This document shows, one piece after another, positions 14,096 through 41,221 of a stretch of 42,013 nucleotides of DNA (position 1 is the first letter of the stretch; the number at the start of each line of letters is the position of its first letter). The DNA is from Candidatus Dojkabacteria bacterium (GTDB lineage: Bacteria; Patescibacteriota; Dojkabacteria; JAHIVN01). The notes beneath the pieces were generated by a model. The model made no database searches, was not told the DNA's origin, and saw nothing but the letters and a program-made list of their open reading frames with translations. The translations under genes and the position numbers were made by a program. The stretch lies in the NCBI GenBank assembly GCA_016932045.1, contig JAFGDO010000032.1:85599-127611 (forward strand), read 5' to 3'.

Positions 14096-14103
14096 ACTCT
14101 ACC

Positions 14104-15309: not shown

Positions 15310-15401
15310 GACCATACGTTTTCAAGGAAGTATTGTTTTAAGGTAAATATACTCTCCACAACGCGAACAACATAATGATATATTTGTGATAAAATGAGAT
15401 C

Positions 15402-16592: not shown

Positions 16593-16612
16593 AACTTTTA
16601 AAAGATGTTAAT

Positions 16613-17881: not shown

Positions 17882-17906
17882 GAGTTTATTTTTTATATAG
17901 GTCTTA

Positions 17907-18920: not shown

Positions 18921-18966
18921 TTCTCATAAAGAGCAACACTCAACCTTATATTTTATATTTTTTATC

Positions 18967-21043: not shown

Positions 21044-22221
21044 AAACACAAAAGAAAAAAATCGGAATAGTCATCCATCGATACGGCCCAGCTGATGAGA
21101 TCACAGGCGGAGCAGAATATCTCACACGGGAAATAGCTGAACACCTAAAAGATAATGTTGAGATAGAAATTATCACCACATGCGCAAAGGATTACCTAAC
21201 CTGGAAAAACGAATACTCCCCCGGTGAAGAAACAATTAATGGGGTAAAGGTTAGACGATTTAAGGTTGATTTTGAAAGGAATCTTGAACTTTTTCTTGAA
21301 ATAGAGGAACAGTTAAAAAACGACAGGTCGAACATTGAACTTGCCATAACCTGGGAAAAAAATCAAGGTCCATATTCCTCCCAATTGTTCGAGTATTTAA
21401 AAGAGAACCACACAGCATACGATCGTCTAATCTTCATTACTTATCTTTATGCAACAACTGTTTTTGGGATAAACATAGCTCCAGAAAAAAGTATACTAAT
21501 TCCAACAGCTCACGACGAACCGCCAATATACTACCGTATATTCAGACAAGTTTTTATAAAACCTTACACAATAGCATTCCTCGCCCCAGAAGAACGTGAT
21601 CTTGTTCATCGTATATTCAGCAACAGGCACATACGACATTCATTAATAGGAGCTGGCGTAGAAATCAACCAGAAACTAGATTATAAGAAGGTAGTAAAGA
21701 AATTCAATCTAAAACGACCTTACATTGTTTTTGCAGGAAGAATCTGTAATGAAAAAGGATGCGGCGAGCTATTTGAATATTTTCATGAATACAAGAAAAA
21801 ATATAAGTCGGATCTCGAACTTGCACTAATGGGAAATGCTCTAATAGATATCCCAAAAGACAAGTCTATAAAATATCTGGGATTTGTAAGTGAGGAAGAA
21901 AAATTCAATGTTATGTCAGGAAGTTTAGCACTAATAAATAATTCTCCCTTTGAAAGTTTATCCCTGATAATTCTTGAATCTTTTTTGTGTAAAAGACCAG
22001 TACTAGCAAATGCAAAATCTCTGGTCATGAAAGGACATTGTGAGAGATCTGGTGGAGGGTATGCTTTCGATGGACAAAATGAATTTTTCCGGTACTTACA
22101 AAAATTAGAAACAAATCAATCCCTATCAAACATTATGGGGGAAAATGGGTACAGATATGTGAAAAGGAATTACAGCTGGGATGTGATGAAAGGGAGGTTC
22201 CTTGCATTAATAAAAGGTTAA
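21040..22221 (+). CDS. GT4 glycosyltransferase
   Basis: KKIGIVIHRYGPADEITGGAEYLTREIAEHLK; YIVFAGRICNEKGCGELFEYF; ATG overlaps the previous stop. Confidence 0.88.
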   Translation: MKTQKKKIGIVIHRYGPADEITGGAEYLTREIAEHLKDNVEIEIITTCAKDYLTWKNEYSPGEETINGVKVRRFKVDFERNLELFLEIEEQLKNDRSNIELAITWEKNQGPYSSQLFEYLKENHTAYDRLIFITYLYATTVFGINIAPEKSILIPTAHDEPPIYYRIFRQVFIKPYTIAFLAPEERDLVHRIFSNRHIRHSLIGAGVEINQKLDYKKVVKKFNLKRPYIVFAGRICNEKGCGELFEYFHEYKKKYKSDLELALMGNALIDIPKDKSIKYLGFVSEEEKFNVMSGSLALINNSPFESLSLIILESFLCKRPVLANAKSLVMKGHCERSGGGYAFDGQNEFFRYLQKLETNQSLSNIMGENGYRYVKRNYSWDVMKGRFLALIKG

Positions 22222-22313
22222 TTCATGCTGTACTAATTGGTCTTGTTATGTCTCTTTTTAGTAGGAAAAAAGAGCTTAAAATCGTTAAAGTTCAATTTTA
22301 CGTTTTATAGCAT

Positions 22314-24173
22314 TTGCATATGGCTTTAAGGGAACCAATTAAAAAGATTTCAATAATCATACCAGTTTATAACGAGGAAAAAACTCTTGCAGAAATACTA
22401 AAAAAGATTGATAAATTATCTTTTGGAGAGATCAGAAAAGAGATAATAGTCATTGATGATGCCTCAAAAGACTCAACTCCAAATATCCTGAAGAATTATT
22501 CGGAGCAAAAAGGATTTAAGGTTCTCAGGAATTCAAAGAATCTCGGAAAAACAAGAACTGTCAAAAGAGGCGTTTTGCTTTCCACCGGTGATGTAGTAGT
22601 CACCCAAGATGCTGACCTCGAATATGAGCCAGAAGATCTTAGAGTAATGCTGGATAAATTTATAAAGGACGATCTTGATGTCGTTTATGGGAATAGATTT
22701 GGTTCTAAACTGAAGAATAAGGGTCCCAACTATCTGGGAAATAAATTCGTAACATTCTTCTCAAACATTTTTACTAGTTTAAGAGGGTTTACGGTTCCAG
22801 ATATGGAAACCTGCTATAAGATGATTAGGGGAGATGTATCTAGAAATATCAGCAAAACCATTGAATCCAAGGACAACTTCAGTATTGAACCAGAGGTAAC
22901 TGCAAAATTGTCTCAGTATCGAGTGAATGATAGAAAGCTACGGGTTGGTATTGTTGATATCTATTACTATCCGCGTACAAGCGCAGAAGGAAAACATCTT
23001 AAGGCACTTCAAGATGGTGTGAAAGCTTTTCTTGCAATTATAAAATTCAATCTGAGATTTAAATTGAAGGACTTTACTTTTCTTTTAAAGAAACTGTTAA
23101 ATGACAGATCTTTGCTCCTGCTCATACTTATATGTATCCTAATGTTTCTTATAAATTATAAGATGCATCCTGCAAAACCATCCTATGATGGAATTACAAG
23201 AGGAGGTTGGTTTGCATGGTGCGACCAACGAAACTACCTACAGATAGCGACAGATCTTTCGAATTTCACACTAAATAGGCGCTTCTTATATGGTTTGGGG
23301 TATCCAGTACTGGCAGCTCCCTTTATACGTCTTTACCCAAAAGATCCCTTTCTAATTCCAAACTTATCTATCTTTGTTATTAGTATCTCGCTCATCTTTT
23401 GTGTAATGCGCAAATATCTAAAATCTGGGAAATACGCCTTTTTAGGAGCACTCCTGCTGATATTTGCAACTCCATTACTTGACTCTATGATAGTTCCGTG
23501 GAACTCAACAGTAAATGTTATTTCTTTTGCAATAATTCTCTACTTTTATTTTAAGCCAAAGTTGAATTATCTTGCATGGATAATCATTGCGTTTTGTTTC
23601 GCGTGGATTTTCTCGGCAAGATATGTAGACATTGTATTCATCGCACCAATGCTTTTATTTCTACTCATTAAGCAGTCTGCAAATTTCAAGTCCTTTGTTT
23701 TGAAATCACTACTATTTTGCTTCAGCTTTATAATATTTATCGCTCCGATACTGTTTGTGCATCACAGATGCTTTGGAAGCATATTTAAAACCCCCTATAT
23801 TTATCACACAACTGAAGACAATGTTTCAGATCAAGATCTCAGCCGATACAGTCTTGAAATCGTTCCAGATAGTTTGCGCACAGTCTTCTTCGGAGATAGA
23901 AATTATGATATTTGGAAATTCCGTCCTTTGTTTCGCGAGGCTCCGATTTTTATATTATGCCCGCTTTCTTTAGTATATTTGCTAAAAAGAAAAAGACTTG
24001 ATCTACTTATGATAGTCTTTTGCATGGTTCTATCTTTTATTTTTTATGCTTCTTTCGGAGGATTCAATGGAGGATCACTTCAATTTGGATGCCTGCATTA
24101 TGTGAAGATGTGGTTTCCTCCACTCGTGCTTTTTACTATGTTTAGCATTAAAGAATTCCTTCAGAAAACCTAA
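22314..24173 (+). CDS. Fusion of DPM1-like GT2 and multi-TM (GT-C-like) domain
   Basis: N-terminal ISIIIPVYNEEKTLAEIL...VIDDASKDST...TQDADLEYEP; C-terminal half with many TM helices and an acidic loop DQRNYLQIA. Confidence 0.82.
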   Translation: MHMALREPIKKISIIIPVYNEEKTLAEILKKIDKLSFGEIRKEIIVIDDASKDSTPNILKNYSEQKGFKVLRNSKNLGKTRTVKRGVLLSTGDVVVTQDADLEYEPEDLRVMLDKFIKDDLDVVYGNRFGSKLKNKGPNYLGNKFVTFFSNIFTSLRGFTVPDMETCYKMIRGDVSRNISKTIESKDNFSIEPEVTAKLSQYRVNDRKLRVGIVDIYYYPRTSAEGKHLKALQDGVKAFLAIIKFNLRFKLKDFTFLLKKLLNDRSLLLLILICILMFLINYKMHPAKPSYDGITRGGWFAWCDQRNYLQIATDLSNFTLNRRFLYGLGYPVLAAPFIRLYPKDPFLIPNLSIFVISISLIFCVMRKYLKSGKYAFLGALLLIFATPLLDSMIVPWNSTVNVISFAIILYFYFKPKLNYLAWIIIAFCFAWIFSARYVDIVFIAPMLLFLLIKQSANFKSFVLKSLLFCFSFIIFIAPILFVHHRCFGSIFKTPYIYHTTEDNVSDQDLSRYSLEIVPDSLRTVFFGDRNYDIWKFRPLFREAPIFILCPLSLVYLLKRKRLDLLMIVFCMVLSFIFYASFGGFNGGSLQFGCLHYVKMWFPPLVLFTMFSIKEFLQKT

Positions 24174-24187
24174 GGGTTATTAAATAT

Positions 24188-26323
24188 ATGCGTATGATTG
24201 AAAAAATTAACACACAAATAAAGATGCTTATTGATTTTATAAGGAAAAGTAGCCCGAAGAATATACATATGCTTGAGATTCTTCTACTTTTGGTATCCAG
24301 TATAAGTGCTGTTGCACTAATCCTCCTGGCATTGGAATTATACGACCCATATTGGTCGCTTTTTATTGGAATCATAATATCTCTTATTATTCTAAAACTA
24401 TTTCATTTCAAAATTGTATTCAGGGATAGTAGATTTTCGATAGTGATATTACTAATTATATTTATCGCACTTTTTCTGCGTTTCAAACCATATATATATC
24501 TTTCCGGAGGACAAGATCAAGGGCTTTACATCAGTATGGCAACACAGTTTGAGGAGCAGAGAGGCATTTATACTATAGATACTGTAAGAGAGAACCTCGA
24601 CGATAAACAAAAACAAATTTACGATGAAGGCATGTTGACAGAGGGATCACTGGTTCCTGGAGTCGCATTTATTGATGCAGAATCCTCGAAATTTCTCATG
24701 CCATTTTACCCTTTACATTCGGTATGGCTGAATGTCTTTAAATCAATCCTCGGAGCTGAAAATAGCGTCTATTCATTAACATTTTTCTCCCTGCTTTCTA
24801 TCTTTGCATTCTATTTACTTGGATATGAAATATCGAACAAGAAAAGATTTGTGGGGTATCTATCAGCCCTTCTATTATCAGTAAATCCCCTTCATGTATT
24901 TTTCTCTAAGTTCCCAGTTACAGAAATAACAGCCTTGGCCTTTACTGCTTTCGGATTCTACTACCTTATAAAATATTACAAGTTTCTAAAAGGTGAGGGA
25001 AAGTTTAACTTACTTTATTTCCTGTTATCCCTGGCAATGTTTAATTGTTTTTTTTATACAAGAACGAGCGGACTTATATATCTTCCGTTCTTCTATCTCT
25101 TAGCTTGGACCACTTTACTATTTGAAAGGAAAAGATTTACTAGGAAGAGTATATTTACCTATCTCCTCTTCCTACTAGCTTTACTCATCATCTCGGCTAT
25201 ATATTATTATAAGTACCTAACTCTTCTATTCATGAGCTATTACCTAGGCATCTCCTCAAGACTTGGAACTCCCAAGCTGTTAATTTTCGGAACAATCATC
25301 TTTGCCTTGTGTTTCTTTTTAATGGTCGCAAATGAACTGCGGAAGCGCCTTGATGGAGAAAAACTCTTACAGATTACTAAAAAGCTCATCTCTATTTGGA
25401 CCATATTATCTATGGTTCTAATTGTCATTTTCAACTTATACAATACATATAAATTAGGTTTCACAGATACATATGTGGGGATACCATTTGATACGTGGTG
25501 GCAAATGACGAATACTGAGTGGAGAGCATTCAAATATACCGCACTGTACAACACTATACTCTACATATCTCCGTTTGGGTTTCTACTATATGTTTACCAA
25601 CTATTTAGGATAAAACAAAAGAGTCTCACTCAAATCCTGTTATTCATTTTTATAAGCTACTTCTTCCTATTCACATCTTACTTGATGCCGTTTGTTTCGT
25701 ACCATTTTTATTATGCAAGATATCTTCTTACTGAAATTGTCCCGTTTATGCTTTTAGCAACAGCACAAATAATGGGCTCAAGATTTAAAAACAAAATTCT
25801 ACGTATGCTTATGTATTTCCTTGTGGCTTTTTCAATCCTATACTCGCTTTTCTTCTCTTTGCCACAACTAAAAGGCGAAGAGGGAGCACACATCCAGTTT
25901 TACAAAGATTTCGATGAGTATGTAAATACAACTGATCTTGTACTTATAAGCATAAACGAAGACTACTCCTGGCCTTCAAATGAACTCATGACTCCATTAA
26001 AATTCTACTTTAATTTCCCTACAATGCGATTGAAGAAAACTGATTACATATACAAAACTGAGCTTATTAATATGTATGAGGATTATAGCGACGTTTATTT
26101 GTTAGTTTCACAAAGAATAGACTCATATAGGGGAGTAGAGTATGTTAAGTCATTGCAATACGAGCAAAGCTTTTTCAGTAGATGCAATGAGAAGCACTTA
26201 TATACCTTCCTTGTGGCTGGCAAATCAAGCCAAGAAACAAAATATCCTTTCTGTAATGACCTTATCCCAACTTCTCACAATACCGGAAGTATAGAGCTAT
26301 ATCTATATCGTGTTGATCTATAA
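24188..26323 (+). CDS. GT-C (PMT/ArnT-like) membrane glycosyltransferase
   Basis: 711 aa, a dozen or so hydrophobic helices, first periplasmic loop SGGQDQGLYISMA. Confidence 0.75.
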   Translation: MRMIEKINTQIKMLIDFIRKSSPKNIHMLEILLLLVSSISAVALILLALELYDPYWSLFIGIIISLIILKLFHFKIVFRDSRFSIVILLIIFIALFLRFKPYIYLSGGQDQGLYISMATQFEEQRGIYTIDTVRENLDDKQKQIYDEGMLTEGSLVPGVAFIDAESSKFLMPFYPLHSVWLNVFKSILGAENSVYSLTFFSLLSIFAFYLLGYEISNKKRFVGYLSALLLSVNPLHVFFSKFPVTEITALAFTAFGFYYLIKYYKFLKGEGKFNLLYFLLSLAMFNCFFYTRTSGLIYLPFFYLLAWTTLLFERKRFTRKSIFTYLLFLLALLIISAIYYYKYLTLLFMSYYLGISSRLGTPKLLIFGTIIFALCFFLMVANELRKRLDGEKLLQITKKLISIWTILSMVLIVIFNLYNTYKLGFTDTYVGIPFDTWWQMTNTEWRAFKYTALYNTILYISPFGFLLYVYQLFRIKQKSLTQILLFIFISYFFLFTSYLMPFVSYHFYYARYLLTEIVPFMLLATAQIMGSRFKNKILRMLMYFLVAFSILYSLFFSLPQLKGEEGAHIQFYKDFDEYVNTTDLVLISINEDYSWPSNELMTPLKFYFNFPTMRLKKTDYIYKTELINMYEDYSDVYLLVSQRIDSYRGVEYVKSLQYEQSFFSRCNEKHLYTFLVAGKSSQETKYPFCNDLIPTSHNTGSIELYLYRVDL

Positions 26324-26335
26324 ATTGATCATATT

Positions 26336-27529
26336 ATGGCCGAAATAAAAGTAAAAATTATATATAGAAATTACATTCCTCTTTATAGCGGATATTGTTC
26401 GTTTTGGCTTGATGATATACCGGGAGTTGAGGTCATCATCCCTGAGGTTAAAACCCATCTAAAGAAATTTTACAAATGGTACTTATTATGCAAAAAAATC
26501 CCCCTAGTTAAAGGTTTATTAAATCTTGGACAGAATCTGCTATTTAATGAGAGAAAAGACAAAGAAGATATTGACCTTTACTTTTTCGCCGGGATTATGC
26601 CCGACAAGAATTTTGGTAAACCCTTTATACTTGACCTTGAGCATGTATATCAACTGTTCAACTTTGTAAACGTAACTGCTAGTAGAAAAAAAGATGTTTT
26701 CAAAATTCTTGAAAGCAAAAATTGCAAAAGGATACTTCCATGGAGTATAGCTGCAGAGAATACACTTAAAAAAATGTACAAAGATGAATATACGAGAATA
26801 ATGAATAAGGTGGAGGTGCTTTATCCTGCTTTGCCTTTATACAAAAAAGTATATAAAGGTAAGGCAGATCACTCAATAGTCAGAAAAGATGATAAAAAAA
26901 TCAAGATTTTATTTGTTGGCAGAGATATTTATCGTAAAGGACTTATGGAAGCACTCATAGCTCTAAAGGAGATAAATAAAAAATTCTCAAAAAAGATAGA
27001 GTTCTACTGTGTATCTGGAGATACCGAGAAACTCAAGAATCAATTCCAGTCGAACAATTTTCACTTCTACCCATTTAATTTCCCACATGATGAAGTCATA
27101 AAAAAGTTCTTTATGACGTGTGATCTTTTTGTTATGCCAACAAGAGTGGACACATTTGGAATGGTTTATCTAGAAGCATTGTCATGTGGTATGCCAATTA
27201 TTGCAACAAAGCAATTTGCTATACCTGAGTTTCTAAAAGACGGGGAAAATGGTTTTTTCGTAGAATCAGATAATTTATTTCTACATAAAAAGCTCATACC
27301 AACAGGTAAGTACTCCGGGATTGGATATAGAGGTATAGAAAAGAAACTGGTGATTGACTTAACCAGAAAACTCAATCTAATCATCGAAAATCCCAATGTT
27401 TTGCGCTCACTAAAAATTGAAGCCCCTAAAGAGTTTGAACCCGGAGGTAAATTTTCGATAATAAAAAGAAATAAGATTTTAGAAAGGATGATTAGAACTT
27501 CAATAAAAGATGGAGAAGATAAGATCTAA
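26336..27529 (+). CDS. GT4 glycosyltransferase
   Basis: IKILFVGRDIYRKGLMEAL...; MPTRVDTFGMVYLEALSCGMPIIAT. Confidence 0.87.
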   Translation: MAEIKVKIIYRNYIPLYSGYCSFWLDDIPGVEVIIPEVKTHLKKFYKWYLLCKKIPLVKGLLNLGQNLLFNERKDKEDIDLYFFAGIMPDKNFGKPFILDLEHVYQLFNFVNVTASRKKDVFKILESKNCKRILPWSIAAENTLKKMYKDEYTRIMNKVEVLYPALPLYKKVYKGKADHSIVRKDDKKIKILFVGRDIYRKGLMEALIALKEINKKFSKKIEFYCVSGDTEKLKNQFQSNNFHFYPFNFPHDEVIKKFFMTCDLFVMPTRVDTFGMVYLEALSCGMPIIATKQFAIPEFLKDGENGFFVESDNLFLHKKLIPTGKYSGIGYRGIEKKLVIDLTRKLNLIIENPNVLRSLKIEAPKEFEPGGKFSIIKRNKILERMIRTSIKDGEDKI

Positions 27530-28439
27530 GAAAATTACATTAGTACTATTCATAATCATTCTACTCGGCCTTGTCTTCTATATATATATAAATTACAGCG
27601 AGTTTTCAAAACTAACAATAAAAAATCCCATCCTACTAATCCCGCTATCTTGCTCAATCATTCTTTTCTTAGCCATCAATGGGCTAGTTAATTATTATTT
27701 ATTGAAAATCTTTAATGTCAAATTGGCCTTTAAAGAGTGGTTTGGACTTTCTGTGATAAATACAATGGGAAATTATTTATTTCCTTTCAGAGGTGGAACT
27801 ATTTCAAACGCAGTCTATCTGAAAGGAAAACACCAATTTCCATATTCTTCTTTCATTAGTATTCTATCGGCTACATATATTTTAGTCTTCTGGGTCATTT
27901 CTATTGTAGGAACCATTTCCCTCCTCATCATCAAATTTATGTATAATGTATTCTCAATCCCCCTAACCGTAGTGTTTATATTTTCTTTTATTTTCCTTAC
28001 TGTAATTATTGCCTTCTCTCCAACTATCAAAGAGACTCCTTATAAAACATTAAATACATTTATTAAAATAATAAATGACTGGAAAGGCATCTCCTCTCAC
28101 AAAAGGACTCTCCTAATAGTAGCCTCGATTACCTTTGTTAACATTTTACTTACGACTTTTAATACTTATCTTGAGTTTCAAATCCTTGGTAAAGAAGTCT
28201 CCTTTATCAAACTAGTCCTCTTATCAGTTTTCTCTTCCTTCTCGCTATTTATTAGTATTACCCCGGGTAACATTGGTATCAGGGAAGCCTTTTCTGCTTA
28301 CTCTGGTAATGTCGTTGGACTGCTTCCAGCTGAAGTAATAACTGTAAGTATTATTGACAGAGCTGTAACATTTGCCCTTTCTTTTATTCTCGGTCTTTAT
28401 TTCTCGTATATACTCACTAAGCGGAGAAAGAAAAATTAG
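27510..28439 (+). CDS. Lysylphosphatidylglycerol synthetase TM/UPF0104-like flippase-type membrane protein
   Basis: Multi-TM ORF with TPGNIGIREAFSAY, typical of the family; start overlaps the upstream GT4. Confidence 0.75.
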   Translation: MEKIRSKKITLVLFIIILLGLVFYIYINYSEFSKLTIKNPILLIPLSCSIILFLAINGLVNYYLLKIFNVKLAFKEWFGLSVINTMGNYLFPFRGGTISNAVYLKGKHQFPYSSFISILSATYILVFWVISIVGTISLLIIKFMYNVFSIPLTVVFIFSFIFLTVIIAFSPTIKETPYKTLNTFIKIINDWKGISSHKRTLLIVASITFVNILLTTFNTYLEFQILGKEVSFIKLVLLSVFSSFSLFISITPGNIGIREAFSAYSGNVVGLLPAEVITVSIIDRAVTFALSFILGLYFSYILTKRRKKN

Positions 28440-29154
28440 ATTTCTTCTTTACTTTGAGTGCAATAAATGCTGAGTGGTAAATATCCAACCTGGACAAAAG
28501 ATTCGGTAAGGGGTAGTATCCCGATCCAAATATCTTCTCGACATCAAAGCTGTGTACTGCAAATAAATGCTTCAACCCGAGAGTAGTAAAAACTCTCTGA
28601 TGCTGCATTGATCTATTTACAGTAAATTCTTCATCTTCGTGATGAACATCAAGGGGATTACCAAGAGAAGATGTCTTTATTGATACATTAGTTAACGAGA
28701 AAGGTGTAAAACCTAGTATTAATGCGAATATATTATGCCAACTCGCTAGGTTTTCAGTAGAAATGACCGCATATCCATCCGGCTTTAATAAACGATAAAT
28801 CTCGGAAACAAAAAAATCTGTATCGAAAATATGCTCTATTACTTGATTAGCATGTATGACATCAAATGAATCCTCTCTGTATGGTAATGACTTATTCAAA
28901 TCACCTCTTTTGACTTGTACTCCGCGCTTTTTTGCTTCTGCAAGCTTTCCACTTTCTATATCGACCCCATATACGTAACTCGTTCCTATCCTTTTTGCCA
29001 ACCTCTCTGTTAACTCACCATCATAACAACCTAAATCCAGAAATTTAGCTGTTTTAGATCTAATTAGTAGATTCTCGATATTCTTCAAGTTTTGTTCATA
29101 GGCATTCTTCCTCAAATTCATTACCTTTCTTATTATTCCCTTATAAATAGACAT
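28417..29154 (-). CDS. Class I SAM-dependent methyltransferase
   Basis: AKFLDLGCYDGELTERLAKRIG; FDVIHANQVIEHIFDTDFFVSEIYRLLKPDGYAVIST. Confidence 0.88.
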   Translation of the reverse strand: MSIYKGIIRKVMNLRKNAYEQNLKNIENLLIRSKTAKFLDLGCYDGELTERLAKRIGTSYVYGVDIESGKLAEAKKRGVQVKRGDLNKSLPYREDSFDVIHANQVIEHIFDTDFFVSEIYRLLKPDGYAVISTENLASWHNIFALILGFTPFSLTNVSIKTSSLGNPLDVHHEDEEFTVNRSMQHQRVFTTLGLKHLFAVHSFDVEKIFGSGYYPLPNLLSRLDIYHSAFIALKVKKKSNFSFSA

Positions 29155-29267
29155 ATCTCCTATAAAATAATAAAATTAGTTGTTGTTTCAACAAGATTTT
29201 TAAATTATACTTGGTTAAGTTTTTAGGATCAACACCTCTAACTAAAATTGTAACTGGAGTTTTAATA

Positions 29268-30368
29268 ATGATGAAAAAAATTTATGTAGTAATCGGTACA
29301 AGAGCTCAGTTCATAAAGGTGGCTCCAATGCTTAGGATGATGCTGGATCAGAATATGAAATATGAGCTTATATTTACAGCCCAACACCAAGAAACAATTG
29401 ACGAAATACTAAAGGTTTATAGGTTACCAAAACCTGATAAAGTACTCTACAAATATACGGAAGCAAATACAAGGTTCCGCTTTGCAAGATGGTTCCTGAA
29501 CATTTTCTTTAAAGTTATCTTTCAATCTAAAAAGTATCTTCCCGAAAAAGGTTATGTATTGACTCATGGCGATACATTTACTGCCTGGTTAGCTGCACTT
29601 ATGGGAAAGCTTGCAGGATGTAAGGTTTGTCACCTTGAATCAGGGCTCAGATCCTATAACATCTTTAAGCCCTTTCCAGAAGAAATTTCGAGATTGATAA
29701 CGTTCACTTTATCTGATGTCTATTTCTGCCCTAACGCTTGGGCAGTAAACAACCTTAAGAAATTCAAGGGAGAAAAGATTAATATGAAAGAAAATCCAAT
29801 GTATGACGGGGTTGTATATGCAATCAAAAATCCCTCAAAAAAGACATTTCCTTTTCAAAAAAAGAAATATGCCATAGTTTCAATTCATAGATATGAAAAC
29901 ATCTTTTCCTCTAGATTTACAGAGGAAATTCTACCCCAGCTTAAAGAAATTTCCCGAAGCATACACCTAGTTTTCACATTACACCCAACGACTAGGGAAA
30001 GGTTAAAAAGTCTGAATTTGTACAAGAAACTCGAGAAAGACAAGAATATAGAGCTGCATGAAAGATTTGATTTCCTCGACTGGATCAGAGTGTGCAATGA
30101 ATCAGAATTCGTAATAACTGACGGCGGAAGTAACCAGGAAGAGCTTAGTTATCTGGGTGTTCCAACAATTCTTTTCAGAACCGAAACAGAAAGGAAAGAA
30201 GGGCTAGGGGAAAACATTGTTTTATCGGAATTAAAGCCAGGAATTATCAACAATTTTGTAGAAAACTATAAAAAATACAAAAGACCTTTTAAGACAACTA
30301 AAATATCGCCATCTCAAACAGTCATTAATTACCTAAAAAAATATAGACTAAACAGAGCAGATTATTAG
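29268..30368 (+). CDS. UDP-N-acetylglucosamine 2-epimerase-like protein (WecB/WbpI type)
   Basis: KKIYVVIGTRAQFIKVAPMLRMM, THGDT, HLESGLRS, PFPEEISR, VSIHRYEN, GSNQEELSYLGVPTILFRTETER. Start placed at 29268 (MMKKIYVV). Confidence 0.87.
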   Translation: MMKKIYVVIGTRAQFIKVAPMLRMMLDQNMKYELIFTAQHQETIDEILKVYRLPKPDKVLYKYTEANTRFRFARWFLNIFFKVIFQSKKYLPEKGYVLTHGDTFTAWLAALMGKLAGCKVCHLESGLRSYNIFKPFPEEISRLITFTLSDVYFCPNAWAVNNLKKFKGEKINMKENPMYDGVVYAIKNPSKKTFPFQKKKYAIVSIHRYENIFSSRFTEEILPQLKEISRSIHLVFTLHPTTRERLKSLNLYKKLEKDKNIELHERFDFLDWIRVCNESEFVITDGGSNQEELSYLGVPTILFRTETERKEGLGENIVLSELKPGIINNFVENYKKYKRPFKTTKISPSQTVINYLKKYRLNRADY

Positions 30369-31043
30369 AAGTCGTGCTTTAAAGTACTTCCCCAGAAAAG
30401 GGAGAGGGGAGAGGACATTAAATATTTTGAAGAATTTAAGATAATGATTCAGAAAGTGTACATTTATACTCTTATATCCTAGCGACTTCAAGATATCTGC
30501 ATACTCCTTTCCATTCCTTACACCTATGTGCCCCGATGTTTGCTTTAAGATACCTAACTTTTTAAATTTTTCTAAAAAATAATCGCTGTTTGGCGTATGT
30601 ATAATCAACTTTCCTCTAGATCTTATAGTTCTTCTTATTTCAGCAAAGATTTCTTTGAGATCTTTATCGTTCAAGTGTTCAACGAAGTCCATTGAAAATG
30701 CCTTGTCGAATTTCCTCTCATTTAACTTGCTGAATTGAATAATATCCATGCAATAAAATCTTGCATTCCCAATTTTTAATTTTTTTCTTCTCTCATTTGC
30801 TTTCTGGATAAATTTTTTTGAGAAGTCCACTCCTATATACTTTTTCACTTTATTATGAATTACATCCATTAGTAATCCATTTCCACATGCATAGTCAACA
30901 ACTATATCTGAAGGGTAAAGCTTAATATACTTCAAGACTCTAGAGATCCTCTCCCCGGGAGACCTGTGATAACTGCTTATATAAGCATCACTTTCATAGA
31001 GTTTAATATTTTTTCTAAGATCTTTCGGGGATTTATACACCAA
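30348..31043 (-). CDS. Class I SAM-dependent methyltransferase
   Basis: DIVVDYACGNGLLMDVIHNKVKKYIGVDFS; FSMDFVEHLNDKDLKEIFAEIRRTIRSRGKLIIHTPN. Confidence 0.85.
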   Translation of the reverse strand: MVYKSPKDLRKNIKLYESDAYISSYHRSPGERISRVLKYIKLYPSDIVVDYACGNGLLMDVIHNKVKKYIGVDFSKKFIQKANERRKKLKIGNARFYCMDIIQFSKLNERKFDKAFSMDFVEHLNDKDLKEIFAEIRRTIRSRGKLIIHTPNSDYFLEKFKKLGILKQTSGHIGVRNGKEYADILKSLGYKSINVHFLNHYLKFFKIFNVLSPLPFLGKYFKARLLIICSV

Positions 31044-31069
31044 ATTACAAGTTTAAGAAATAATTCTAT

Positions 31070-33082
31070 TTAAAACAATTTCTTTATGCTGTTGATCTTT
31101 TGTATTGCAGATTTCATATCTATCTCTATGGTATTGCAATACCACAGGATAGAATCCAATCTAGGCTTATTCTCAAGTTTCGACAAACGATATCCATCTT
31201 CCCTTGTGATAAGTCCCTCTCGTATCTGATTACTTCTAAAGGTATCATTTTCTGTGAATCCAGTTACTGTATAGTAGATGTAATTATAGAAGGACGCTGT
31301 TCCATCACCTATACGCCACGAAGTTTTAGTATCCGGAGAAAGTTCCCAGTTATACTCTTCCAGCAAAGTCTTTTCTATTACCTTTTCGTTCCATGGTATA
31401 AAGCGATACAGATAAACATACTCTTTGGGAACAAAATATGATGATATATAAGCAGTAAAGGTATCAATTAAAGAAGCATTTAAATAGGACGGGTTCGATA
31501 AGTAATGAGAAGCATAAAACCATAAAAGTCTAAATGTGTTTGTAATGCCAATTGCATATGCCTTTTGTACTTCAGGAGTTAAATAAACATTTGCAAATCC
31601 GTACTTAAAATCTGTCTTTTCAAGTGAGTTGTCGGCATATATCACTAAATCAATACCTGTTTCTCCACGAACTTTATTTAGATAGTAAAAGTATTGTTTA
31701 TCCCCTGCCATAAAAAGCGGGACCATACCTATGTGCGGTTTTTTCAACCAAGCGGAAACATTCTTTCGAATATACTCCCTCTTTTTCTGAATATCTGCGG
31801 ACACAAGAATATGCTCAACACCTAGCTTGCCAGTCATTCTAGCTTGATTCCTTCTGCCAAGATCTGTAAGCATCCCCCAATCATAGGAAAACGCGAGTGG
31901 ATTCAATCCCAATTCATTTTTTGCATAGTGAAGTGCATAACTACTATCCCTTCCCCCGCTGAATGAGACAATACAATTTGGCACATCATCTCCTTTATTT
32001 TTAAACTTAGTGATTTCTTCATGTAAAGCTTTCTGCCCTCTCACGTCCCTCTTTTGATAATTATGGCAATAATTGCACACTCCATCATCATCAAAATGAA
32101 TAAAAGGCATGGTCTCCGGTAACAAACACCTCACACAACGCGTAAGTTCCTCTATCCTAGGCTGGTTCCTCGTAAACTCTTCAGTGATTATCTTCTCAAC
32201 CTCTTCTTTATCTTTCTCATTTTTATTAATAATACTACTAAGATGAAGAATGTTTGCCCCCTTTGGATCGAGTACCCGAATTCTTCTTTTCTTCCTCACG
32301 ACCACAAACTCTTTATTGTTTTTCACACCACCATCCAATGAAAAAGGCAAATGAGAATTATCTGACAAGTTTATAATCAAACCACTGCCTGGTTGAATTT
32401 TTGTAATTGAAAAATCATAAGAACTATCACCGAATTCCTTCTTTATAAGAGCCCTTGCAAAAAACTCCTCAGATGTAAAAATATGTATACCACTCGCCTT
32501 ATGCTGTATAAGAAACAAGGAGCCAGTATTTGTTGCGAGCAATAGATGATCTAAATCATCAAATAATGTTCCAGTTGCAAACGATCCCTCAATAAAGCTA
32601 AAAGTTTTTCTGACAGCATTTAAAATATCCTTATCCTCCTTTATAAACTTTCTCAATAATGCATTAATAATCTCAGTATCAACAGTATATTGTCTTTCTA
32701 GAGAATGGAATTCTTCCCATAATTGATCGACATTAACAACAATGCCATTGTGGATAGTAATACAGCCTTGGTTTACAACAGGCTGGTTATTATAACTTAC
32801 ACTAAATGAACCATTTGTTTCCATCCGTGCATGTCCTATTACTGCTTCTATTTCATCAATATTTGAATTGATTAAATCTTTGTAGCCTTTTGATTTTATT
32901 AGCGATGAAGCTGAAATCGGCCTTTTATACACAAGTATGTCCTTCGCGGATGCCAAAGCTACGCCCGAGGCATCTTTCCCTCTAGATTCTGATAATCTTA
33001 ATAAGGTATCAATAATGGAAGTTAACTTTTTCGAAGAATAATAACCTTTTTTTGAGGGAATGACTCCAAATATGCCACACAT
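31070..33082 (-). CDS. Class II glutamine amidotransferase fused to PP-loop N-acetyl-sugar amidotransferase (WbpG/PseA-like)
   Basis: MCGIFGVI N-terminal Cys nucleophile; CVRCLLPETMPFIHFDDDGVCNYC; PP-loop CIVSFSGGRDSSYALHYAKNELGLNPLAFSYDWG. Confidence 0.87.
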   Translation of the reverse strand: MCGIFGVIPSKKGYYSSKKLTSIIDTLLRLSESRGKDASGVALASAKDILVYKRPISASSLIKSKGYKDLINSNIDEIEAVIGHARMETNGSFSVSYNNQPVVNQGCITIHNGIVVNVDQLWEEFHSLERQYTVDTEIINALLRKFIKEDKDILNAVRKTFSFIEGSFATGTLFDDLDHLLLATNTGSLFLIQHKASGIHIFTSEEFFARALIKKEFGDSSYDFSITKIQPGSGLIINLSDNSHLPFSLDGGVKNNKEFVVVRKKRRIRVLDPKGANILHLSSIINKNEKDKEEVEKIITEEFTRNQPRIEELTRCVRCLLPETMPFIHFDDDGVCNYCHNYQKRDVRGQKALHEEITKFKNKGDDVPNCIVSFSGGRDSSYALHYAKNELGLNPLAFSYDWGMLTDLGRRNQARMTGKLGVEHILVSADIQKKREYIRKNVSAWLKKPHIGMVPLFMAGDKQYFYYLNKVRGETGIDLVIYADNSLEKTDFKYGFANVYLTPEVQKAYAIGITNTFRLLWFYASHYLSNPSYLNASLIDTFTAYISSYFVPKEYVYLYRFIPWNEKVIEKTLLEEYNWELSPDTKTSWRIGDGTASFYNYIYYTVTGFTENDTFRSNQIREGLITREDGYRLSKLENKPRLDSILWYCNTIEIDMKSAIQKINSIKKLF

Positions 33083-33132
33083 AATTATTTTCAGTTAAAC
33101 AGAGAAGTCTGAATAAATTTCCATTCTCAATT

Positions 33133-34101
33133 TTACTTTTTCTGGTCGTTGTATCTGAGAGATTTTAAATAATAAAGAATTCGCTCCTGATTTCCTCTAA
33201 CTGAACCTATCATATCAGCTAATAACCCTACTATGAAAAGAATGATACCTAGAATATTTAGGAATCCCCCTATAAAACCAACTGATATATACGGTGAAAA
33301 AGAACCTGTTCGAACGTAGTGAATGAACAAAAACCCATCAAGAAGTAATCCTAAGCAAAATAACCCTAGCCCAAGTAATCCAAAAAACTTTAGAGGCTGG
33401 TAATCTCTAATTGTTCTTAAAATGATTGCTAGAGCCTTTCGAGCATAATCTAAAGCACCTTTAAAAACACGTGACTTTTTATTTCTCCCCTCGAAATATT
33501 TTACTCCTGTAATCGGGACTTCTTTAATAGCCACGTTCTTCATAGAAAGATCTATAAAAACTTCCTGAGTATATGTGAATTGACCAAATACATTTAGATT
33601 TAAAAGGGCTTCTTTTGAATAAGCTCTAAATCCACAAGCAACATCAGAAAATTTTCTACCTAATAAAAAGCTGATAATTTTCGCTACTTGTCTGTTCCCC
33701 CATAAACGTACCGAGCTTATATTCTTTGGCATATCTACTTCCCTTGAAAAGCGAGAGGCGGTTACAAAGTCCGCTTCCTTATCCATTATCGGCTTAATAA
33801 GTTGAGGAATTTTTTCTGAGGGGAATTGCCCATCTGCATCAATCGTAACCATTATATCTCCTCCCAGTTCCAGAGCTTTCAAAACTCCAGTTTGAAATGC
33901 TCCACCGACACCACGATTTTGTACATGTTTAACAACCACCGCACCTTTCTTTTTCGCAATCTCAGCCGTCCTATCCTTTGATCCGTCATCAACTACTAGT
34001 ATCTCTTGTTCAGAAAACCCCTTTACTTTCGGTATGGAAGAAAGTACTTGCCCAATACTTTCTTCTTCATTATATGCAGGCATAAATATCACCAGTTTCA
34101 T
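33133..34101 (-). CDS. GT2 glycosyltransferase with C-terminal TM pair (DPM1/GtrB-like)
   Basis: LVIFMPAYNEEESIGQVLSSIP...VVDDGSKDRT...TIDADGQFPSEKIPQL, two C-terminal TM helices. Confidence 0.92.
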   Translation of the reverse strand: MKLVIFMPAYNEEESIGQVLSSIPKVKGFSEQEILVVDDGSKDRTAEIAKKKGAVVVKHVQNRGVGGAFQTGVLKALELGGDIMVTIDADGQFPSEKIPQLIKPIMDKEADFVTASRFSREVDMPKNISSVRLWGNRQVAKIISFLLGRKFSDVACGFRAYSKEALLNLNVFGQFTYTQEVFIDLSMKNVAIKEVPITGVKYFEGRNKKSRVFKGALDYARKALAIILRTIRDYQPLKFFGLLGLGLFCLGLLLDGFLFIHYVRTGSFSPYISVGFIGGFLNILGIILFIVGLLADMIGSVRGNQERILYYLKSLRYNDQKK

Positions 34102-34119: not shown

Positions 34120-35400
34120 TTATCTCCCAATCCCTCTGTAGATTATACCAAGTTTCTCCACCTTTCGTTTGTTAAGTCCATTCATACCATCAACCAAAAC
34201 CTTTATTTTTTTATATTCACCAAGAACTTCATCTAAAACAAGAAATTCATTGTGTGGTGTACAGAGAAATACTGCTTCCGATTTTCTCAGAGCCTCTTTA
34301 AGACTTTTCACGGTAGATAATTCCGCGAAATATGGATCATACACTACAAGCTTCGCACCTAGGGACGTAAGTCTTTTTTGAATTTCAAGGCAAGGACTTT
34401 CTCGTAAGTCCCCAACATTCGCTTTATAGCTCAGGCCAAGGAGTGCAACCTTAGTACCATTGATAGGCATTTTAGCCATATTTAAAGCTTCCTGCAATCT
34501 ACTTACTGCATATTTGGGCATATTATTATTGACATCCCGAGCCATTTTAAGAAAGCTATGATTAAAACCGCTTTTTGCAGCCCTATTTATCAAATAGTAT
34601 GGATCAACTGCTATACAGTGCCCCCCTACACCTCTTCCCGGCCAGTGAATCATGAATGCAAAGGGTTTATTTGAAGCACCCTGAAGAGTCTCAATTAAAT
34701 CTATACCCATAGCGTCAAAGGACATAGCAAGCTCATTCACATAGGCGATATTTATGTCTCTGAATGTATTTTCAACTATCTTAGTAGCCTCAGCTACTTT
34801 TAGACTGGAAACTTCATTTATATCCGCTTTTATGAAGTCTCTATAAAAATCAGCTACTTTTTTAGTATCTTTTCCTGGATATACACCTATATTGCGTGCG
34901 ATATTATATACATTCCATTTCGGATCCCCTGGATTTATTCTTTCTGGACAATGGGCTAGTGTAATATCTTTCCCTACTTTAAGCTTTGAAACCTCCTCTA
35001 TGACTGGAGCTACTATTTCCTCGCATGTACCTGGATTTATAGTAGACTCTACGACAACAATATTACTCGGTCTCAAATACTTTGCAGCTGTCTTACTAGC
35101 TTCTTTCACAGGAGTATAGTCGGGTGTATAGTCATCAAGAACAGGCGTAGGTACACAAATTATAAAAACATCTGAGTTCTTTATCATCCGTTCCTCACTT
35201 GAAACTTTAAGGTCTAGTTCTTTAATATCTTCCGCACAGACCTCATCGTCAATAGGGCACTTTCGCTCCCTGATCTTTTTGATCTTCTCTTTGTTAATAT
35301 CAAATCCAACTGCCTCATACTTCCTACTCCTTGCAATTGCACAAAGTAAGGGAAGCCCAACATAGCCCAGACCAATTACAGAAATCTTTTTGATTTTCAT
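34120..35400 (-). CDS. Nucleotide-sugar dehydrogenase (UDP-ManNAc/UDP-Glc dehydrogenase family)
   Basis: ISVIGLGYVGLPLLCAIA Rossmann motif; HCPERINPGD; GVGGHCIAVDPYYL catalytic Cys region. Confidence 0.93.
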   Translation of the reverse strand: MKIKKISVIGLGYVGLPLLCAIARSRKYEAVGFDINKEKIKKIRERKCPIDDEVCAEDIKELDLKVSSEERMIKNSDVFIICVPTPVLDDYTPDYTPVKEASKTAAKYLRPSNIVVVESTINPGTCEEIVAPVIEEVSKLKVGKDITLAHCPERINPGDPKWNVYNIARNIGVYPGKDTKKVADFYRDFIKADINEVSSLKVAEATKIVENTFRDINIAYVNELAMSFDAMGIDLIETLQGASNKPFAFMIHWPGRGVGGHCIAVDPYYLINRAAKSGFNHSFLKMARDVNNNMPKYAVSRLQEALNMAKMPINGTKVALLGLSYKANVGDLRESPCLEIQKRLTSLGAKLVVYDPYFAELSTVKSLKEALRKSEAVFLCTPHNEFLVLDEVLGEYKKIKVLVDGMNGLNKRKVEKLGIIYRGIGR

Positions 35401-35546: not shown

Positions 35547-38234
35547 TCAGTTGTACTTGTTTCTAGTATTAATTCTGCCATCTGTTCCTCTCATAGCTTG
35601 ATACAGGGTACTGTTAAATACAGTCATAGTCACATCTGTAGAGCTACTTCCTCCTTCCATCCAATAACCCCAAGTGTTTCCATCCGTCGAACTACGAGTA
35701 TAAACAGTTGTGTTATCCATTCCTCTTACTGCTTGGTATAATCTCCCAGAAAAAGCTGTCATTGTAATGTTTCCATATGTACTACCGTTTATAACCCAGC
35801 TACTCCAATTTGATCCGTCTGTTGTATAACGTGTCAGTATACTTCTGCCATCCAGCCCTCTAACTGCCTGATACAATCTGTTCGAGCCAGGATTAAACAC
35901 TGTCATTGTGATATTACCATAGGTACTGCCATTAAGTGTCCAAGTACTCCAATTTTCCCCATCGGTTGTGTAGCGCGTTAATATGCTCACACCGTTTAAG
36001 CCTCTTACTGCCTGATATAATCTATCTCCAGATCCAGGATCAAACACACCCATTGAGATATCTCCAGTGGTGCTACCTTTAATCGTCCAAGTGCTCCAAT
36101 TTGATCCGTCTGTTGTATAACGCGTCAATATACTTGTACCATCCAGCCCTCTAACTGCCTGATATAATCTATCTCCTGCACCAGGATTGAATGTTAACAT
36201 TGTTATATTGCCGTAGGTACTACCATTGATTGTCCATGTACTCCAATTTTCTCCATCAGTTGTGTAACGTGTCAATATGCTCGTACCGTCTAATCCTCTT
36301 ACTGCCTGATATAGCCTATCGCCAGATCCAGGGTTAAATACAGTCATTGCGATATCTCCGTATGTGCTGCCTTTTATCGTCCAGGAGCTCCAGCTTGAAC
36401 CATCTGTAGTGTAACGTGTCAGGATGCTCACACCATCTAAACCTTTAACAGCCTGATATAACCTTTCTCCACCACCAGGATTAAATGAAACCATCTCTAT
36501 ATTGCTGGATGAACTTCCATTTTGTCCCCAATTGGTCCAGACATTGTACCAAAGCTCTTCAAAGTTAACGATTCCATATCCAGTTGAATTGTCCTTTCCC
36601 GTTGCACCTATATCTGTAGCTGTTCCAGTTAGGAAAGCTTTAACATTATATGGTGTAGCTGTCGGATTTTTGCTCTTCACAATCGCAGCCGCCGCTGCCA
36701 CCTGTGGACTTGCATAAGAAGTCCCTGCACCATACTGAGCCGAGAAGCTCTTATAGTTGTTTACAGGATCATCGTGACAATCAAACGGGTAGTTAACAAA
36801 ACAAGCGAAACTTTGTTGCCATGCGCTATTTCCTGGATCAGAAGAATCACCTACAGCAGCAACCAGATCTAGATTACTACCTCCATTCGAATAAGAAGCT
36901 CTATCATCACTACTATCTGATGCGCCAACAGCAATAACATTAGTATAAGCAGCAGGATAACTTACTGAATACATCGTAACGTCAGTAGAGTCATTCCCCG
37001 AAGCTGCTACCAAGACAATTCCTGCATTATAAGCATCATTTATGCATCCTTCTAGAAATGAATCATAACCTCCACCACCTAAACTCATGTTTATAACATC
37101 GGCCCCATTAAGCCTTGCATAATCAATCGCATTACAAAGGTCATCGTTATAAAAGCTTGGTCCATAAATATCAGGATATGCAGCGTGAGTTATTCTTTCA
37201 GAACCCTTGATAGGCATAAGCGTGATATTGTGAGCAGGTGATACACTACTGCCCGGAGGATTTGCTGAAGTGTTGTCAATATTTGAAGCTACTGAACCCG
37301 AAACAAAAGTACCATGTCCAAAGTCGTCATTTGGATGACCCGCCTCTGACCACTCACTTGCAGTACATAAAGGATCACCCCAAAGATAATTCATATAGGG
37401 TGCGTATATTGCACAAATCCACTCTTCATATGGATTATACCCTCTGCAGTCATCTATGTAACCGTTCGAATCATCATCATCACCATCTGTACAGCTTGTC
37501 TCATCTGAGTTGTTATAAAGGTTGAAACTTCCTGAAATGTTGAATTCCGGAGCTATATCAAAATCAAATTGAGTTGATTCATCATAGAGGTTACTGTTTC
37601 TATCCTCAACGGCAACACCGGTATCTATCACTGCTACAACGACAGTACTATCTCCTCCACAGCTAGCTCCTGAATTATAACAATCCTGATCCTGCCACAT
37701 CTCTCTTACATTTGCTTTATCATAATACCAATGATTTGTTCCATTATAATCTGCCGGGGTATCTTGATCACTAGCCCTGCCCCATGCAGTTGGATGATAA
37801 ACATAAACGGGCTGAGCGTACTCAACATTTGGATCTAAACTGTATTCATATAATTTACTTTCCAGTTCACTAACTTTTTGTTCTCTTTCAGCGTCACTTA
37901 AACTCTCATCTTTATTGCTTAGACTGATAACTTCTTGGCCTACTCCCTCAACCATAACAGTACGGTAATTCCATCTCTCTTTAGCCTTTAGAGAATTAAC
38001 TGCGTATCCGCCATTCTTTTTTAATGAGCCATCAATGGCCTGTTCACTTGCAGATTCTTTATACTTAACGATAAATCTATTTAATAGGAATTCTTTTTCT
38101 GAAGAGACCATTTCTGAGATCTCTTGAGCTTTCTCAAGTTTTTCTGCATATACACTATTGGGTGGTAAATTTCCTAAAAGAAGAACAGATGATAAAGCAA
38201 GACAAACAAGTGAGAGTAATTTTTTCTTATACAT
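35547..38234 (-). CDS. Secreted S8 subtilisin-family protease with C-terminal seven-unit beta-propeller
   Basis: Signal peptide, propeptide, catalytic VAVIDTGV / FGHGTFVSG / AASGND / GTSYASPQ, then repeated RLYQAVRGLDGxSILTRYTTDGxNWSTWxxxGSTYGxIxM units. Confidence 0.93.
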   Translation of the reverse strand: MYKKKLLSLVCLALSSVLLLGNLPPNSVYAEKLEKAQEISEMVSSEKEFLLNRFIVKYKESASEQAIDGSLKKNGGYAVNSLKAKERWNYRTVMVEGVGQEVISLSNKDESLSDAEREQKVSELESKLYEYSLDPNVEYAQPVYVYHPTAWGRASDQDTPADYNGTNHWYYDKANVREMWQDQDCYNSGASCGGDSTVVVAVIDTGVAVEDRNSNLYDESTQFDFDIAPEFNISGSFNLYNNSDETSCTDGDDDDSNGYIDDCRGYNPYEEWICAIYAPYMNYLWGDPLCTASEWSEAGHPNDDFGHGTFVSGSVASNIDNTSANPPGSSVSPAHNITLMPIKGSERITHAAYPDIYGPSFYNDDLCNAIDYARLNGADVINMSLGGGGYDSFLEGCINDAYNAGIVLVAASGNDSTDVTMYSVSYPAAYTNVIAVGASDSSDDRASYSNGGSNLDLVAAVGDSSDPGNSAWQQSFACFVNYPFDCHDDPVNNYKSFSAQYGAGTSYASPQVAAAAAIVKSKNPTATPYNVKAFLTGTATDIGATGKDNSTGYGIVNFEELWYNVWTNWGQNGSSSSNIEMVSFNPGGGERLYQAVKGLDGVSILTRYTTDGSSWSSWTIKGSTYGDIAMTVFNPGSGDRLYQAVRGLDGTSILTRYTTDGENWSTWTINGSTYGNITMLTFNPGAGDRLYQAVRGLDGTSILTRYTTDGSNWSTWTIKGSTTGDISMGVFDPGSGDRLYQAVRGLNGVSILTRYTTDGENWSTWTLNGSTYGNITMTVFNPGSNRLYQAVRGLDGRSILTRYTTDGSNWSSWVINGSTYGNITMTAFSGRLYQAVRGMDNTTVYTRSSTDGNTWGYWMEGGSSSTDVTMTVFNSTLYQAMRGTDGRINTRNKYN
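35553..36546 (-). repeat. Intragenic tandem repeat of ~135-147 nt encoding ~45-49-aa propeller blades
   Basis: Seven RLYQAV/TLYQAM units, with LTRYTTDG and W..W motifs in the better-conserved ones. Confidence 0.9.
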
Positions 38235-38446: not shown

Positions 38447-40105
38447 TTGAAACAAGAAAGTTACAAAAAAATTAAAAAAGGACCTCTAATTATTATGCTC
38501 TCTGTTGTTGCTGTCTTTTCTATATTCGGATTATACTATATATATAACAGTTATAGCAAACTACCACTCGCTCAAAGCAATATTTATATAGACAACAAAC
38601 CATCTGATAGTAAAAGTAATATCTATTCAAGTGAATCTTTTGCTATAAAAGAATCCATTCTCCAAGATAAAAGGGTAGAAAATGGTACACATAAAATAAA
38701 AACTACCTCAGAAACTACTATTGCCTCAAACAAAGTCGGTTCAGTTAAAGAGCTGTCATTTGGAGATTTAGCAAGTGGACAATTATTTTCAGTTGACCTT
38801 TCGGCATATGAACTTGACTCTTTTGCCATAAAATGGAGCGGGGGAGAGTTTGAGTGGGGCTTAAATTCATCAGATGAAATTCCAGATCTTGTACCTGCGG
38901 AAGTCAGTGACGAGATAGATCCAAATCAAGAGGAACTTATATCTGATCTTTTATCATTTGACTCAAAGTCATATCTATTTATAAAACCTACTGAGCCTAT
39001 TACCAATTTTAGAATTCATCTAATAAATCCATCAGAAGAAACTCGAGGTTCTCACGTAAGCTCAGCTCCGTCTAATTATAGTTCAGGACCGAAATACTCG
39101 ACTCTAAATATAATCCCTCGGGAAGTGTGGTCAGGAGATCCGAACATAAACGATCCAAGGGTACCTGGGCTTTGTGACATCCTTCTTCCAGGAGATCCGG
39201 ATCGTCCTATCTATTGTGACGAATGCGGCGGCAGTCCATGCGGAGGAAGACTAATATGGGAACCTTATTACTACAGTGTGAATAAAGTTGTAGTTCATCA
39301 TACAGCTGACTCAAACAACAGCCACCCAGATCCCGCTTCACAAGTTAGAGGTATTTATAATTATCATGCTTATAGTGTTCCTTGGTGTGCAAGATATGAA
39401 AACAGCGTTTGCGTCGAGTGGAGAAATGGCTGGGGGGACATTGGTTATAACTACTTGATTGATCACTATGGAAATATTTATGAAGGTAAACTCGGTGGAG
39501 ACGAAGCAAAGGGCTATCACGCATCTAGTGGGAATTATAATAGTATTGGAATATCAATCATTGGCACATATTCAACAGTAACTCCATCACCAGCTGCTCA
39601 AGATGCACTAGTTAAGTTGATAGCAGAAAAAGCTGCATTACATGACTTCACACCTTCCTGGAATTCAACTGTTTTTGGACACAGATATTTCCAAAACACA
39701 GCTTGTCCAGGTGATGCTTTTTATGCCATTCTCCCATCTTTATCGGCAAGCGCTAGCAACTATAAAGATTCTAACTTCTCTGAGATAAAATCAGTTGTCG
39801 CTCATGCAAATCATAATATTGACAATCTAGAATATAGCGAATATCAACTTCTGCTTCGTTTTAACAATGACGTGTCAATGTCAACACTTTCAAGTCTCTT
39901 TCCAGTTTATAATAATGAAGTTGTGAGCTGGAATGGCATAGATCATTATTTGCTAAACGAGGACCAAATTACCCTTCACATCGATTACGACTTCGGAACA
40001 CAATTAAGTAGAGATAGGCTCAAAACTCTTTACAAAATCTTCTGGCTGAGGAATGATGTTGAAGCAGCTGGATTGAATTTTAAGAACTACGTTGCAAATA
40101 AATAA
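38447..40105 (+). CDS. Membrane-anchored/secreted N-acetylmuramoyl-L-alanine amidase (PGRP/amidase_2)
   Basis: TTG start; N-terminal TM; KVVVHHTAD, GDIGYNYLIDHYGNIYEGK, VFGHRYFQNTACPGD zinc-site motifs. Confidence 0.9.
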   Translation: MKQESYKKIKKGPLIIMLSVVAVFSIFGLYYIYNSYSKLPLAQSNIYIDNKPSDSKSNIYSSESFAIKESILQDKRVENGTHKIKTTSETTIASNKVGSVKELSFGDLASGQLFSVDLSAYELDSFAIKWSGGEFEWGLNSSDEIPDLVPAEVSDEIDPNQEELISDLLSFDSKSYLFIKPTEPITNFRIHLINPSEETRGSHVSSAPSNYSSGPKYSTLNIIPREVWSGDPNINDPRVPGLCDILLPGDPDRPIYCDECGGSPCGGRLIWEPYYYSVNKVVVHHTADSNNSHPDPASQVRGIYNYHAYSVPWCARYENSVCVEWRNGWGDIGYNYLIDHYGNIYEGKLGGDEAKGYHASSGNYNSIGISIIGTYSTVTPSPAAQDALVKLIAEKAALHDFTPSWNSTVFGHRYFQNTACPGDAFYAILPSLSASASNYKDSNFSEIKSVVAHANHNIDNLEYSEYQLLLRFNNDVSMSTLSSLFPVYNNEVVSWNGIDHYLLNEDQITLHIDYDFGTQLSRDRLKTLYKIFWLRNDVEAAGLNFKNYVANK

Positions 40106-41134: not shown

Positions 41135-41147
41135 TTTCTATTTGTAC

Positions 41148-41167
41148 GTACGGAATATATTCCGTAC
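41148..41167. repeat. 20-bp perfect palindrome GTACGGAATATATTCCGTAC
   Basis: Direct reading; shares core GAATATATTC with 41208-41221 and 41920-41939. Confidence 0.9.
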
Positions 41168-41176
41168 AATTCATGG

Positions 41177-41197
41177 AGAATTTAATAAATTAAATTC
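41177..41197. repeat. AT-rich inverted repeat gaatttaat-aa-attaaattc
   Basis: 9-bp arms with a 2-nt spacer between the two intergenic GAATATATTC palindromes. Confidence 0.7.
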
Positions 41198-41207
41198 CTA
41201 CAAGAGA

Positions 41208-41221
41208 CTGAATATATTCAG
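41208..41221. repeat. 14-bp palindrome CTGAATATATTCAG overlapping the end of a FemAB gene
   Basis: Direct reading; contains the stop codon of the 41218-> minus-strand gene. Confidence 0.85.

Follow-up and report, generated by a model that had tools for sequence, protein, structure and literature searches.

Why would a bacterium of the Dojkabacteria secrete a protease that ends in a long array of repeats, and why would the gene lie beside genes for surface glycan synthesis? The question is raised by an 895-residue open reading frame at 35547-38234 on the (-) strand of the window, by which we mean the whole stretch of 42,013 nucleotides analysed here, in a genome of 1.46 Mb that is 94.5% complete. 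The original prediction described the product as a secreted subtilisin with an intact catalytic domain, carrying a lectin-like propeller next to the glycan locus. Little is known about the ways in which ultra-small Patescibacteria attach to cell surfaces and act there, and a literature search for a Dojkabacteria subtilisin, a Dojkabacteria lectin or subtilase-propeller lectins returned nothing relevant.

The N-terminal part of the protein has the sequence features of the Peptidase S8 family. The catalytic triad (D204/H307/S506) and the oxyanion-hole Asn (N414) are in place, and the protein has a secretion signal and a probable propeptide in common with the family, the latter matching no family in Pfam. 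The signal peptide is of the cleavable type and the C-terminus is without an anchor motif; the protein can be read as a secreted subtilase with predicted proteolytic activity, in line with the original description. What distinguishes it from other S8 peptidases is the C-terminal domain, which is covered by no Pfam or NCBIfam model above cut-off; the Pfam matches that do fall within it (phiKZ_gp29PR, IMS_HHH_1 and viral coat models) were rejected as short chance matches to the repeat. A full-length AlphaFold2 model, for which only three sequences could be aligned, is uninformative in the protease domain (pLDDT under 50). The features of the protein and of its surroundings are collected in Table 1.

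Table 1 Features of the protease-propeller gene and its neighbourhood, in window positions
Feature	Position	Strand	Basis
Signal peptide, residues 1-30	38145..38234	(-)	Hydrophobic N-terminus, sequence read directly; probable cleavage SVYA|EK
Probable propeptide, residues 31-160	37755..38144	(-)	Place ahead of S8 domain
Peptidase_S8 (subtilase) domain, residues 196-554	36573..37649	(-)	Pfam PF00082, E 5.9e-37
Leading half unit, residues 564-590	36465..36545	(-)	Blade HMM match at 564-581 to model 22-39; strands in AlphaFold2 model
Propeller unit 1, residues 591-639	36318..36464	(-)	Blade HMM E 1.5e-20
Propeller unit 2, residues 640-688	36171..36317	(-)	Blade HMM E 3.4e-20
Propeller unit 3, residues 689-737	36024..36170	(-)	Blade HMM E 8.8e-20
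Propeller unit 4, residues 738-785	35880..36023	(-)	Blade HMM E 9.6e-21
Propeller unit 5, residues 786-830	35745..35879	(-)	Blade HMM E 2.8e-22
Propeller unit 6, residues 831-875	35610..35744	(-)	Blade HMM E 1.1e-17; furthest diverged among the six
Trailing half unit, residues 876-895	35550..35609	(-)	Blade HMM match at 877-892 to model 2-17; strands in AlphaFold2 model
Amidase_2 (PGRP-type) cell-wall amidase, apparently membrane-anchored	38447..40105	(+)	Pfam PF01510, E 1.4e-18; upstream, divergently transcribed
Nucleotide-sugar dehydrogenase (UDP-ManNAc/UDP-Glc dehydrogenase family)	34120..35400	(-)	Pfam; NCBIfam TIGR03026, 374 bits; adjoins protease gene downstream
Surface-glycan locus	13325..34101		Pfam, NCBIfam

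With a blade HMM built from this protein and related ones, we could divide the C-terminal domain into a half unit, six whole units (each matched at E 1e-17 to 3e-22) and a final half unit, with unit lengths of 45-49 residues. The repeats proposed earlier are thus real, although what had been counted as seven units of about 47 residues is six whole units and two complementary halves. No further copies of the units were found elsewhere in the genome. An AlphaFold2 model of the propeller, built from three aligned sequences, arranges 28 strands as seven W-motif blades of four strands each, which form a closed ring, with a pLDDT of 89.6 and a pTM of 0.88 in the best of five models, whose mean pLDDT ran from 52 to 90. 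By comparison with Asp-box propellers, the strands of each blade may be read as A (NITMTVF), B (RLYQAVRG), C (ILTRYT) and D (SSWTIKG). In the model, the leading half unit provides strand D of the last blade and then strand A of blade 1, and the last blade receives its strands B and C from the trailing half, so that the two halves together complete the ring. As the chain begins at strand D and ends at strand C, the last blade would be closed in the classical way by the N-terminal D strand, which is the circular "velcro" closure that had been suggested.

The relatives support closure from an independent angle. Copies in two other genomes (G001 and G067) have the ring split in the same way, in those of G049, G055 and G056 the seven units run from strand B to a final strand A, and G001 and G002 also encode rings of seven units whose chain ends lie at other points and which follow different N-termini. 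An open array would not tolerate such shifts, and the same number of units with different chain ends thus argues for a ring. We therefore predict with high confidence that the C-terminal domain is a closed seven-bladed ring.

The ring is homologous to the PLL lectins of Photorhabdus in both fold and sequence. In a Foldseek search with the model, the eleven best PDB matches are all Photorhabdus lectins (PLL5, PHL, PLL2 and PLL4), at E 3.5e-12 to 3.9e-10, TM-scores of 0.75-0.80 and 22-25% identity. At the level of sequence, the outcome depends on the breadth of the profile. A blade profile made from Dojkabacteria alone puts PLL on top, yet only at E 0.0027 and amid sialidases; with the blades of two further genomes added (G410 and G147), the eight best matches are PLL-family sequences, at E 2.9e-15 to 2e-4; and with the more PLL-like blades of G131 and of a second G147 protein, the PLL matches reach E 2e-31 to 2e-21 and all seven blades of PLL2 are matched. 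The blades last added are tied to the Dojkabacteria ring family through matches of E 7.6e-12 and 3.7e-16, and since the broadest profile leans on this bridging link, we consider the middle profile the cleaner evidence. A full-ring profile made from three rows gave no PLL match. The likeness to PLL-type lectins, which had been offered as a family-level analogy, has thus turned out stronger than claimed. With PLL, PLL2-PLL5 and PHL the ring has in common the seven four-stranded W-motif blades and the second Trp of the sugar pocket (the first W of WSxW); it differs from these free-standing lectins in being the C-terminal domain of a secreted protease, and in a family-specific, near-invariant Arg and an Asp-box-like turn. 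The AAL/RSL fucose lectins are likewise multivalent propeller lectins, but they are six-bladed and match the fold less well (TM 0.5-0.65).

The setting of the gene suggests what such a ring could be for. The glycan locus, which encodes a Wzm/Wzt-type ABC exporter, gmd, several GT2/GT4 transferases, a WecB-like epimerase, a WbuX-like amidotransferase and methyltransferases, does adjoin the protease gene as described, but gmd (17907-18920) lies about 17 kb away and the adjacent gene is the nucleotide-sugar dehydrogenase. Dehydrogenase and epimerase, neither of which passes a specific-equivalog cut-off, together suggest an acidic sugar such as ManNAcA. At 31070-33082 a glutamine amidotransferase-like domain is fused to the WbuX-like N-acetyl sugar amidotransferase, which suggests an amidated sugar in the glycan, and two proteins in or near the locus, of 711 and 472 residues (24188-26323 and 8760-10178), match nothing in Pfam or NCBIfam. 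On the other side of the protease gene, two adjacent genes of the FemAB family of peptidoglycan cross-bridge enzymes (40118-41955) lie beside the amidase.

Our preferred reading, to which we assign a probability of roughly 0.6, is that of a glycan-tethered envelope protease with a PLL-superfamily ring as its targeting domain. The ring would present up to seven near-equivalent binding sites between its blades, and multivalent weak binding at these sites would keep the protease attached to a glycan at the surface of the cell envelope; there it may work together with the membrane-anchored cell-wall hydrolase encoded next door. The target would be the producing cell's own envelope or a zone of contact with a partner cell; it is the association with the glycan genes of the cell itself that leads us to lean towards these two.

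Patescibacteria are generally held to be episymbionts, and one could therefore also imagine an epibiont's lytic kit, in which the lectin ring directs the protease, together with the amidase or GH18 enzyme encoded beside it, to a surface glycan of a host or prey cell. The company of cell-wall hydrolases is indeed recurrent: an amidase homologue neighbours the protease-propeller in G001 and in G014, which belongs to a different family and has Wzm/Wzt nearby as well (the amidase is 45% identical to the neighbour in L021 and has homologous pieces in L051), and in four genomes of a further family, f5, the gene directly upstream encodes a GH18 enzyme, so that three of the four Dojkabacteria families have an Amidase_2 or GH18 neighbour. 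In the stretch examined in G067, glycan genes are present and no Amidase_2 or GH18 hydrolase was found. The homologous Photorhabdus lectins, moreover, bind host glycans (PMC5584973, PMC12203525). Two observations speak against a foreign target. The genes lie among those with which the cell makes its own glycan, and the N-terminal membrane anchor of the amidase, with no evident cleavage site, places that enzyme on the producer. We regard a lytic kit as possible, at clearly lower odds than tethering to the producer's surface or contact zone.

The sugar pockets known from the PLLs are changed in this ring. The fucose-binding, hydrophobic (H) site of the PLLs pairs a Ser or Thr in turn T2 with two Trp residues, the first of which lies five residues further along (PMC12203525, PMC5584973), as in S246, W251 and W265 of PLL3 (PMC12203525) or T194/W199/W214 and T338/W343/W355 of PHL (PMC5584973). 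We mapped these positions by ungapped alignment to PLL5, which places the Ser/Thr in the turn following RG, the first Trp at the Y of IYTR and the second at the first W of WSxW. Where the PLLs have the first pocket Trp, five units have Leu, one has Tyr and one has Asn; the turn that bears the Ser/Thr in the PLLs is one residue longer and changed (LDGTS). The second pocket Trp is retained in all complete units. The strict PLL fucose site, with Ser/Thr in T2 and two Trp, is thus absent from this protein. In the relatives, Tyr prevails at the first pocket position, and Thr or Ser is frequent in the turn. At the polar (galactose, P) site of PHL, formed by R91, E93, W107, Q155, S160, G161 and W163, an alignment by hand has the Arg and the last Trp kept, W107 replaced by Tyr and the others changed. 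The Epimerase family matches only gmd and one weak place in the genome, 94.5% complete as noted, and no GDP-fucose synthase was found. Together with the distance to gmd, these findings do not bear out the binding of fucose or the link to gmd that had been put forward. Our own reading of the sequences is that they point to a changed sugar specificity rather than to a loss of binding, the ligand being not fucose but another sugar, perhaps an acidic amino sugar from the adjacent locus.

The degenerate hydrophobic site would also fit a propeller that binds protein or serves a structural role, for instance as a substrate-recruiting ring, and is no lectin. Propellers do bind proteins as well, and LGI1 and sortilin are among the weaker Foldseek matches; in addition, the Arg two residues past the first pocket position, found in 67 of the 70 blades, is not a PLL feature, other residues being found there in PLL, and could be structural. 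We nevertheless find this unlikely: the top matches in fold and sequence are all sugar-binding lectins, the second pocket Trp persists, and an Arg, an aromatic residue and a Trp are retained at polar-site positions.

The blades are, furthermore, kept alike. Units 1-5 are 76-88% identical in protein, and where residues are identical the same codon is used in 14-24 of 32-37 cases, with 44% expected from codon usage, most four-fold synonymous sites being scrambled. Units that stay alike in protein while most of their four-fold sites have drifted indicate that the likeness is held by selection, and for most pairs we reject recent amplification as its cause. The exception is units 3 and 5, with 11 of 14 four-fold sites identical; this pair, and less clearly units 2 and 4, have more codons in common, which fits a two-unit period of 294 bases. 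Selection for alike blades is what equivalent binding sites would require.

C-terminal domains of various kinds are common among secreted subtilases, and the genome itself encodes two other subtilases. The protein might accordingly be an ordinary digestive enzyme with a sticky accessory domain, its proximity to glycan genes being incidental. The recurrence of that proximity makes this improbable. A GT2/GT4 gene lies within 5 kb of seven of the eight protease-propeller genes, compared to 8-17% of random positions, and near the eighth (G001) we recognized, from their sequences, a gene resembling that of a flippase and one for a putative membrane mannosyltransferase. As four of the eight genomes come from one family, the independent lineages are fewer than the genomes; counted by family, an example of glycosyltransferase proximity is found in all four Dojkabacteria families. 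In contrast, none of the propeller-less subtilases of the same genomes, a small control of three, lies within 10 kb of a GT2/GT4 gene. Finally, a sialidase-type (BNR/Asp-box) propeller, suggested by the Asp-box-like turns (T-T-D-G-x-x-W) in each unit, by the propeller fold and by weak BNR and sialidase matches, is very improbable, as bacterial sialidases are six-bladed enzymes whose active site has left no sign here, and they are the best match neither in fold (next best at E 3e-8, TM about 0.5, against 0.75-0.80 for PLL, and 0.5-0.65 for sialidases and six-bladed fucose lectins taken together) nor in sequence (E 1e-3 in the broader profile, against 2e-31 for PLL).

The ring is found in 10 of the 86 genomes of the Dojkabacteria class and in three others of a 381-genome sample of the phylum, a sample that included some of that class. 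Sensitivity depended on the query, since a scan of genome contigs with the single protein found no relatives and one with a three-row alignment found two. Phage, plasmid and viral contigs gave no match, either in a viral-contig scan or by tblastn against phage and plasmid records. The ring of G410 may be a contaminant from another phylum: other genes on its contig (L064, G410:C153), such as the one at 6652-7371 for a prepilin-type protein, do not resemble those of Patescibacteria. A match outside the class, in G147 of a different Patescibacteria family (L062:2883-5273), belongs to a subtilase whose repeats, only about three in number, would not make up a one-chain ring, and adjoins a glycosyltransferase; an amidase suspected in its divergent 403-residue neighbour was dropped, as that protein has no Pfam match.

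Within the class, the architecture varies. One protease-propeller has eight units instead of seven (L007, in G052). In G014, a single-contig assembly, frameshifts and stops interrupt both the subtilase-propeller (L051:9861-13372) and the amidase beside it, as a result of either decay or assembly errors. A gene for a secreted cohesin-like protein directly follows the protease-propeller gene in G049 (L044:11049-11747), and a similar one lies near it in G056 (L046:2609-3295). In G001 and G002, seven-unit rings (L012, L020 and L009) follow two unrelated non-protease N-terminal regions with no Pfam match, one of them on the same G001 contig as a protease-propeller. A ring behind unrelated N-termini indicates a shuffled module, as expected of a targeting module.

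What is new here is a PLL-superfamily ring as the targeting domain of a subtilase in Patescibacteria, which extends the PLL lectin superfamily from Photorhabdus to this phylum, with natural circular permutations of the ring. One could speculate, and we do so tentatively, that a separate branch of PLL-type rings exists in Patescibacteria, its specificity being new, given by an Arg-plus-aromatic site in each blade and directed perhaps at acidic amino sugars. Such rings might be interchangeable modules that target secreted proteases and further proteins of the envelope, and form, with the adjacent amidase or GH18 enzyme and the glycan locus, a glycan-guided system for envelope remodelling or host contact. 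A lectin ring with solved homologues, carried by a secreted protease and encoded beside glycan and wall-hydrolase genes, would offer an expressible, glycan-array-ready handle on the surface contacts of Patescibacteria.
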